Assembly: GCF_030418295.1 (NCBI RefSeq)
Contig: NZ_JAUHQA010000001.1
Coordinates: forward strand, 2,108,001-2,172,000
Length of the DNA stretch: 64,000 nucleotides
Direction of reading: 5' to 3'
From: Demequina muriae
Lineage (GTDB): Bacteria > Actinomycetota > Actinomycetes > Actinomycetales > Demequinaceae
In this document: in pieces, positions 47,208-48,956 of the stretch
Layout of the letters: each line of letters opens with the position of its first letter
Position numbering within the stretch: the stretch's first letter is position 1
The notes under the pieces: model-generated
Database searches by the model: none
What the model was told of the DNA's origin: nothing
Seen by the model: only the letters and a program-made list of their open reading frames with translations
Made by a program: the position numbers and the translations under genes

Positions 47208-47213
47208 CATACT
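47208..47213 (+). promoter_or_regulatory. -10 box of the cimA leader transcript
   Basis: CATACT lies 7 nt before the leader peptide ATG at 47221 (TACTGA at 47210 with a 5-nt spacer is an alternative reading). This predicts a leaderless leader mRNA, as at the ilvB leader. Confidence 0.5.
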
Positions 47214-47220
47214 GAACCCG

Positions 47221-47247
47221 ATGTATGCCGCGATCATCATTCCGTAG
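47221..47247 (+). CDS. cimA leader peptide (MYAAIIIP)
   Basis: An eight-codon open frame with three consecutive Ile codons (ATC ATC ATT), followed by TAG. It begins 7 nt after a -10 box and is followed by two adjacent hairpins, the second an intrinsic terminator, before cimA. Citramalate synthase starts the pyruvate route to isoleucine, so an Ile-codon stall sensor is the expected logic for ribosome-mediated attenuation. The peptide is too short for ordinary gene finding; its support is codon content, position and the paired RNA elements. Confidence 0.75.
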   Translation: MYAAIIIP

Positions 47248-47275
47248 CGCGTCGGCGACCACCCTCCCGACGCGC
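47247..47275 (+). promoter_or_regulatory. attenuator first hairpin, cimA leader
   Basis: GCGCGTCGG (47247-47255) pairs perfectly with CCGACGCGC (47267-47275) around an 11-nt loop. The left arm begins at the last base of the leader stop codon, so a ribosome finishing the peptide would cover it. The layout mirrors the ilvB leader. Confidence 0.65.
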
Positions 47276-47303
47276 AGCCTCCCGTACCCTGGGGGGCTTT
47301 TTT
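47276..47303 (+). terminator. attenuator terminator upstream of cimA
   Basis: AGCCTCCC pairs with GGGGGGCT around GTACCCT and is followed by a run of six T. It begins directly after the first hairpin and 58 nt before the cimA start codon. Confidence 0.8.
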
Positions 47304-47360
47304 GTTGGGCGAACGGTGGTCGCACGTTGTCGCGGGTGAGCACGAACCGAGGAGAACACG

Positions 47361-48956
47361 ATGACGGATCTCACAGTGGAGGTCTACGACACGACTCTGC
47401 GCGATGGCGCGCAGCAGGAGGGCATGAATCTGTCCGTCGCGGACAAGATGGCGATCGCACCCCTGCTCGACGAGCTCGGCGTGGGCGTCATTGAAGGGGG
47501 ATGGCCCGGCGCGGTGCCCAAGGACACCGAGTTCTTTGCGCTCGCGGCCAAGGAGCTGACGTTCAGGAACGCTCAGCTCGCCGCCTTCGGCATGACGCGC
47601 AAGGCCGGCACCACCGCCGCCGCGGACCCGCAGGTGCGCGCGCTGCTCGACTCAGAGGCGCCCATCGTCACGCTGGTCGCAAAGTCGGACATCCGTCACG
47701 CCGAGCGCGCGCTTCGCGTCGCGCCCGACGAGAACCTGCGCATGATCGAGGAGACTGTCGCGTTCCTCGCGGGGGAGGGCCGGCGCGTGATCCTCGACGC
47801 GGAGCACTTCTTCGACGGCTACCAGTACGACGCCGAGTACGCGATCCGCGCGCTGCAGGCGGGCGTCGCGGCCGGCGCCGATGTGGTGTGCCTGTGCGAC
47901 ACCAACGGCGGCATGCTGCCCGATGACGTGAGCGAGATCGTGCGCGCCGTGGGCGAGCGCGTGGACGCAGTGCTCGGCATGCACGCACACAACGACTCCG
48001 GCTGTGCGGTGGCCAACTCGATGGCCGCCGTGGCCGCGGGCGCCACCCACGTGCAGGGCTGCGTGAATGGCTATGGCGAGCGCACGGGCAACGCAGATCT
48101 GGTCGCGGTGGTCGCGAACCTCGAGCTCAAGCGCGGCGTCAGCGCACTCAAGCACGACGGCCTCGCGGAGTCGACCCGGATCGCTCACGCCATCGCCGAG
48201 ATCACCAACATCGCGCCGTTCGCGCGCCAGCCGTACGTCGGCGCCTCGGCCTTCGCGCACAAGGCTGGCCTGCACGCATCGGCGATCCGCGTGGATCCCG
48301 ACCTCTACCAGCACCTGGACCCTTCGCTGGTGGGCAACGACATGCGCATGCTCGTGTCCGAGATGGCGGGCCGCGCCTCGATCGAGCTCAAGGGCAAGGA
48401 ACTCGGGTTCGACCTGGCGGGGCAGAACGAGCTCCTGGGCCGCGTGACGGATCGCGTCAAGCACGCGGAGGCCGCCGGCTACACCTTCGATGCGGCCGAT
48501 GCGTCCTTCGAGCTCCTGCTGCGCAGCGAGCTGGGGGAGACGCCGGCGTTCTGGGACGTCGAGACCTGGCGCGTGCGCGTCTCGTCAGTGCCGGGCGACC
48601 CGACCGATGCCGACGCCGAGGCCGTGGTGAAGGTGCGCGCGGGATCCGAGCGCATCGTCGCCCTGGGCGAGGGGAACGGACCGGTGAACGCCCTCGACCA
48701 CGCCCTGCGCGACGCGCTGTGCGGCGTCTACCCGGAGATCGAGGAGTTCGAGCTCACCGACTTCAAGGTGCGCATCATGGAGGCGTCCCACGGCACCGAT
48801 GCGGTCACCCGGGTGCTCATCACGACCGTCCACCGCGAGACCGGGACGACGTGGCGCACCGTGGGGGTGGGCCCGAACGTCATCGAGGCATCGTGGGAGG
48901 CGCTCGCCGACTCGCTCGTCTACGGGCTGCTCAAGGCGGGCGTCGAACGGCGCTAG
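47361..48956 (+). CDS. cimA: citramalate synthase
   Basis: A 531-aa enzyme that condenses pyruvate with acetyl-CoA to citramalate, the first step of threonine-independent isoleucine synthesis; LeuCD and LeuB then give 2-oxobutyrate. The TIM barrel carries VYDTTLRDGAQQEG (residues 7-20) and the metal/substrate motif GMHAHNDSGCAVANSMAA near 205, then GCVNGYGERTGNADL. The C-terminal LeuA-type regulatory domain (about 395-525) usually binds isoleucine. The length and the AQQEG variant favour CimA over LeuA. GAGGAGA precedes ATG 47361. It is controlled by the attenuator directly upstream. Confidence 0.9.
   Translation: MTDLTVEVYDTTLRDGAQQEGMNLSVADKMAIAPLLDELGVGVIEGGWPGAVPKDTEFFALAAKELTFRNAQLAAFGMTRKAGTTAAADPQVRALLDSEAPIVTLVAKSDIRHAERALRVAPDENLRMIEETVAFLAGEGRRVILDAEHFFDGYQYDAEYAIRALQAGVAAGADVVCLCDTNGGMLPDDVSEIVRAVGERVDAVLGMHAHNDSGCAVANSMAAVAAGATHVQGCVNGYGERTGNADLVAVVANLELKRGVSALKHDGLAESTRIAHAIAEITNIAPFARQPYVGASAFAHKAGLHASAIRVDPDLYQHLDPSLVGNDMRMLVSEMAGRASIELKGKELGFDLAGQNELLGRVTDRVKHAEAAGYTFDAADASFELLLRSELGETPAFWDVETWRVRVSSVPGDPTDADAEAVVKVRAGSERIVALGEGNGPVNALDHALRDALCGVYPEIEEFELTDFKVRIMEASHGTDAVTRVLITTVHRETGTTWRTVGVGPNVIEASWEALADSLVYGLLKAGVERR

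Follow-up and report, generated by a model that had tools for sequence, protein, structure and literature searches.

A putative isoleucine-sensing transcription attenuator upstream of the citramalate synthase gene cimA in Actinomycetes

Codon runs and terminators in the ilvB leaders of actinobacteria have been on record since 2005 (Seliverstov et al. 2005, PMC1262725). In the ilvBNC leader of C. glutamicum, mutational work has led to the argument that the hairpin adjoining the terminator serves as the antiterminator and takes shape upon ribosome stalling (PMC11857589). Regulatory codons in a leader do not by themselves prove attenuation, as changing them in the S. coelicolor ilvB leader had no effect, according to the account given in PMC1262725. 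In S. lividans, the eight leader peptides listed from transcriptome data include ilvL and no cimA leader (PMC8079986), and neither this study nor PMC1262725 reports a leader at cimA.

The DNA analysed here, hereafter the window, is a stretch of 64 kb from a genome of the genus Demequina (class Actinomycetes, order Micrococcales), whose nearest named relative is D. aestuarii (98% identity of CimA). Judging from the sequence, its cimA gene is very probably preceded by an Ile-sensing, ribosome-gated transcription attenuator. Such an attenuator at cimA appears to be undescribed: we found no report of it in a literature search in which most subscription journals fell outside the scope.

The cimA leader, its gene and its host genome

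The features on which the analysis is based are the following.

47208-47213, plus strand: -10-like box CATACT, read directly in the sequence, 7 nt 5' of the uORF ATG
47221-47247, plus strand: leader frame MYAAIIIP with a UAG stop, read as ATG TAT GCC GCG ATC ATC ATT CCG TAG
47233-47241, plus strand: putative sensing Ile codons ATC ATC ATT (codons -4, -3 and -2)
47247-47275, plus strand: hairpin H1, GCGCGTCGG/CCGACGCGC (arms 47247-47255 and 47267-47275), from sequence and RNA folding
47276-47303, plus strand: hairpin H2, AGCCTCCC/GGGGGGCT, with T6 (arms 47276-47283 and 47291-47298), a predicted intrinsic terminator, from sequence and folding
47298-47303, plus strand: T-run of the H2 terminator
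47304-47307, plus strand: GTTG directly 3' of the T-run, strongly conserved in the leader alignment
47361-48956, plus strand: cimA, citramalate synthase, 531 aa (TIGR00977, PF00682, PF08502)
2511-2614: ilvB leader of the window, with frame 2511-2552, H1 2537-2578 (GCGCGCGGAC/GTCCGCGCGC), a 2-nt gap and a T6 terminator

A preliminary description of this DNA had placed a short frame with three Ile codons in a row, two hairpins and a T-run just before cimA. Direct reading found all of these exactly where they had been placed, and the arrangement recurs in the 80 leaders described below. In the window leader, the G of the UAG stop forms the first base pair of H1, at a distance of 5 nt from the last Ile codon; H1 and H2 are spaced by 0 nt, and 57 nt separate the terminator end from the cimA ATG. 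RNA folding of the leader returned both hairpins (-36.4 kcal/mol, z -2.3), and the GTTG that follows them probably ends an imperfect U-tract. When both strands of the 64 kb were scanned for terminator-like hairpins under a strict definition (at least 7 pairs with T5), the cimA leader site was the sole match, indicating that U-tract terminators are rare here and that the one before cimA is not background. Across the remainder of the ~79 relative loci, the same scan picked up a single additional site.

The downstream gene had been named citramalate synthase, and this assignment was confirmed by profile search: window CimA scores 600 bits against TIGR00977, for a cut-off of 450. It also matches Pfam PF00682 and PF08502, so that the LeuA_dimer allosteric/regulatory domain is present. 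No biosynthetic threonine deaminase was found over the ilvA family cut-off in the window's genome (best 168 vs 379 bits), and CimA may thus be its main isoleucine entry. The best match below the cut-off, at 168 bits, lies at G000:C1:2077543-2078370. Among relatives, 33 of 59 have a full-length threonine deaminase over the family cut-off.

Conservation in relatives and distribution across the class

From a single scan of named genomes we obtained 80 cimA loci, of which L093, at a contig end, was dropped; the resulting set of 80 leaders comprises the window and 79 relatives, and is dominated by Micrococcales. The whole arrangement (uORF, H1 and H2) was found in 80/80 leaders. The uORF stop is UAG in every one of them, with its G as first pair of H1, and the uORFs of the relatives span 8-16 codons with the same end point. 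Ile is found at codon -2 in 77/80 leaders, the other 3 having Leu, and at codon -3 in 72/80. Codon -4 is Leu in 40 leaders and Ile in 34, while Ile at codon -1 occurs in 0/80; some leaders (L098, L110, L142) have a lone Ile codon. In codons -2 and -3, both C and T occur freely in third position (ATT/ATC), the first and second bases being nearly constant: it is the amino acid that is kept, and not the RNA. One may suppose that the element is an unregulated terminator or a small RNA, whose terminated product of ~80 nt would be abundant, and that the Ile run is incidental. This is extremely improbable, given that Ile codons with synonymous variation are found throughout the 80 leaders and class-wide, nearly always before cimA or ilvB.

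The frame had been described as leaderless. Among the 69 leaders with an anchored -10 box, 65 have this box 6-7 nt 5' of the ATG or GTG, a spacing that is the signature of a leaderless transcript (or one with a 1-nt leader at the window). The predicted start is thus supported in silico.

Covariation was measured on 69 distinct leaders, with shuffles and slid helices as controls. Overall, 95.1% of cells in H1 and H2 are paired, and ten pairs show changes on both sides: 6/10 in H1, where the 4 others are invariant, and 4/10 in H2. Two-sided changes were counted in 113 cells, compared to 45 +/- 8 in shuffled alignments (0/500 shuffles reach 113) and to at most 35 for slid helices. Kinship inflates these counts, but not to 113, given the low values of the slid controls. 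The H1-H2 gap was 0-1 nt in 78/79 relative leaders scored. The alignment of relatives, proposed in the preliminary description as its own check, therefore came out in its favour for both the Ile codons and the stems.

A covariance model built from the leader was then applied to an even sample of the class comprising 395 genomes (E <= 0.01, E-values being rough). It matches 241/395 genomes, belonging to 98/138 genera, and CimA is present in 311 of the 395. In the window's own genome the cimA leader scores 86 bits, and the model detected no further strong copies there: the other matches are weak, the ilvB leader among them (19 bits). No Rfam family (T-box, ilvB-OMG and others) matched the window at gathering score, the best sub-threshold match having 20.5 vs 50 bits. 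In the 66 class-wide loci analysed in detail, which are the best-scoring ones and whose geometry counts therefore lean to good matches, the gene 3' of the element is CimA in 61 cases, IlvB in 4 and another gene in 1.

Some lineages have CimA and no leader. At the loci L151-L154 and L260-L263, where the element is absent, cimA lies directly 3' of another gene, as would be seen if the element were lost where cimA sits in another transcription unit. At L256-L259, the leader is absent and the upstream region has a different appearance. In the Cellulomonadaceae leaders L065, L068, L086 and L092, the interval from the terminator to cimA contains extra hairpins, CACCACCCCC being an example of their loops. 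Finally, in a genome with three covariance-model matches (G236), locus L246 (G236:C37:283429-283514, minus strand) has a frame MFALVIIM* followed by H1 and H2 before a protein of ~107 aa. This protein matches the ACT domain weakly (E 0.0014, short of the Pfam cut-off), and its gene is possibly a further one under the same control.

The ilvB leader of the window was said to parallel that of cimA, and it does so: at 2511-2614 we find a common design, with a GCGC hairpin and with the last Val codon 5 nt 5' of H1 as at cimA. In the ilvB leaders, whether from Demequina or from other families, BCAA codons are followed by a GCGC hairpin and then by a terminator. The mode of the codon-to-H1 distance is again 5 nt (20/43), and the hairpin-terminator gap is 0 in 29/43. 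It had further been suggested that the two loci could respond together. This is plausible, though in part only: the ilvB leader of the window carries Ile, Leu and Val codons whereas the cimA leader carries only Ile, and Ile should thus be the sole amino acid to which cimA responds in this genome. The genes ilvB, ilvD, leuB and ilvE are all located within the 64-kb window.

Putative stall site, hairpins and possible switch

In 40/61 class-wide loci scored, 5 nt separate the last Ile codon from the first pair of H1. In the others the distance ranges from 3 to 12 nt, several of the 3-, 4- and 6-nt distances stemming from the scan having extended H1 by 1-2 pairs, or from H1 starting one base later. 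The position of the stop is more variable across the class: many loci have UAG at the base of H1, and elsewhere the stop is inside H1, at +7, +10 or +13 (VIIIGKRV*). Loci with the stop inside H1 and an unchanged Ile-to-H1 distance come from several families (L187, L191, L200, L202, L207-L209, L215, L229 and others). As the 5-nt distance holds despite the shifting stop, it is the position of the stalled ribosome relative to H1, and not the stop, that seems to be held constant. The two hairpins are adjacent class-wide, with a gap of 0 nt in 47/66 loci and 1 nt in 17/66.

We modelled how a ribosome on the uORF would affect the hairpins, by folding 79 leaders in which all nucleotides as far as the ribosome leading edge (+16) were masked, for four ribosome positions and for ribosome-free RNA. 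With the A-site at Ile codon -4, H1 was intact; about 2/3 of its pairs were left at -3, about 1/3 at -2, and none at the stop. With this toeprint-like footprint, a ribosome on Ile -2, the best-conserved codon, already opens the lower 5-6 pairs of H1, so that the model favours stalls at -4 or -3, or else a tighter mRNA-entry edge (~+12). The probability of H2 averaged 0.93-0.95 at every modelled position, and constrained folding of the 79 leaders found no base-paired antiterminator that would exclude the terminator. The preliminary description had proposed an Ile attenuator giving feedback at the mRNA level. The codons, the stems and the gene all speak for this; the standard antiterminator was not found, and H2 stayed folded at every modelled position.

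These folding results weigh against a classical, Yanofsky-type mechanism, according to which a base-paired antiterminator is present but was missed, being non-canonical, pseudoknotted or protein-dependent. All the remaining features of the leader fit such a mechanism, and in some species pairing is conceivable between the C-rich loop of H1 and the G-rich 3' arm of H2, along the lines suggested for the ilvB-II motif (PMC10272879). However, as judged by eye on the alignment, the C-rich loop is not conserved, and we regard this possibility as unlikely. Another pairing considered as a switch was that of the H1 loop with the tail that follows the terminator. The H1 loop strand GCGACCACC (47255-47263) is complementary to GGTGGTCGC (47315-47323), just 3' of the terminator. 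This complementarity follows species in Demequina (own -13.96 vs permuted -12.58, 0/200 permutations), and pairing of the H1 loop and 3' strand with the post-terminator tail gave no signal in other families (189/200 permutations). We rejected this switch, since it is confined to Demequina and can form solely in read-through RNA.

In the same class, the adjoining hairpins of a BCAA gene (C. glutamicum ilvBNC) have been explained by a base-sharing 'fast attenuator', a model backed by mutations (PMC11857589), and the same could be imagined here: the base of H1 would extend and take the boundary nucleotides of H2. The contiguous outward extension of H1 is nevertheless 0 bp in 76/80 cimA leaders, the other 4 having 2 bp, which makes base sharing quite unlikely at cimA.

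We favour an attenuator in which H1 itself acts as the antiterminating element, an assignment that seems somewhat more probable than its opposite. Translation of the uORF, termination at H2 and the direction of control are here what we infer from the sequence. A leaderless transcript would have its 5' end on or beside the uORF AUG, and a ribosome closely trailing RNA polymerase would translate the uORF. With ample charged Ile-tRNA, it would clear the Ile codons and enter H1, up to the UAG at its base (or to the inner stop elsewhere). This fed ribosome would melt H1, H2 would close and transcription would end before cimA (OFF). With scarce Ile-tRNA, the ribosome would wait at the Ile codons, leaving H1 mostly folded (ON); with the A site occupied by the last Ile codon, ~12 nt would separate the first P-site nucleotide from the base of H1. 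Since the fed ribosome removes H1, higher cimA expression under scarcity would require the folded hairpin to be the ON state.

How folded H1 would prevent termination is more speculative. For the polymerase to be released, a terminator hairpin must close to ~8 nt from the RNA 3' end, inside the exit channel. As the flush junction is the only link between H1 and H2, we tentatively propose steric exclusion as the switching step. H1 and H2 have no nucleotides in common but lie flush, and folded H1 would find no room in the RNA exit channel next to an H2 that had closed fully; H2 closure would then fail, and the polymerase would read on into cimA. The invariant GCGC at the H1 base may serve as a clamp against peeling open.

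A simpler role for H1 would be that of a mere RNA polymerase pause hairpin, or of an insulator of H2, attenuation being kinetic and an untranslated leader leading to termination. The H2 loop, which is mostly CG[C/T]ACC, lies 10-12 nt 3' of H1, the usual distance for hairpin-stabilised pauses, and such roles are familiar from classical leaders. Pausing offers no route from starvation to read-through, however, and leaves unexplained both the flush junction and the fixed Ile-to-H1 spacing; it is therefore not a likely account of the leader. The cimA leaders may possibly, though this is less than an even bet, represent a class-wide family of attenuators whose antiterminator hairpin has no bases in common with the terminator, flush contact alone blocking its closure. 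The ribosome would then be a remover of the hairpin, and absence of translation would turn the gene on, opposite to what happens in classical attenuators.

Comparison with known attenuators

An element of this kind would provide RNA-level control of the threonine-independent isoleucine pathway in at least 98 of the 138 sampled genera, and it sharpens the question of how actinobacterial leaders attenuate with no apparent antiterminator. For metabolic engineering, it would be a short and removable brake on citramalate and isoleucine production.

As expected for a leader-peptide attenuator, codons for the end product are found in a short predicted frame, and a predicted intrinsic terminator precedes the pathway gene. 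The likeness to the enterobacterial ilv, trp and his attenuators lies in codon-specific stalling, which would choose between termination and read-through. These attenuators however use exclusive base pairing (2:3 vs 3:4), which folding did not find at the cimA leaders. The element would thus work like a ribosome-mediated attenuator, yet without the base-paired antiterminator that defines the classical type. Isoleucine supply is also sensed at the RNA level by the Ile-specific T-box leaders, such as those of actinobacterial ileS, but T-boxes directly bind uncharged tRNA, and the window has no Rfam match at gathering score.

Closer parallels are found within the actinobacteria. The ilvB leaders, and IlvL of S. 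lividans, likewise combine a short leaderless BCAA frame with a terminator, the antiterminator being missing or unclear. The C. glutamicum ilvBNC leader and the ilvB-II motif (PMC10272879, PMC11857589) share with cimA a leaderless uORF with BCAA codons, and a hairpin adjoining the intrinsic terminator. This hairpin, placed between control codons and terminator as in the ilvBNC type, is separated from the terminator by 0-1 nt in 64/66 cimA-type loci. C. glutamicum differs in the gene, ilvB, in its uORF of 15-17 codons and in its hairpins, which share a GCC trinucleotide, whereas the cimA leaders have no shared boundary nucleotides (76/80) and, in the window, would sense Ile only. The steric proposal nonetheless agrees with ilvBNC, since there too the hairpin adjoining the terminator is held to be the antiterminator upon ribosome stalling.
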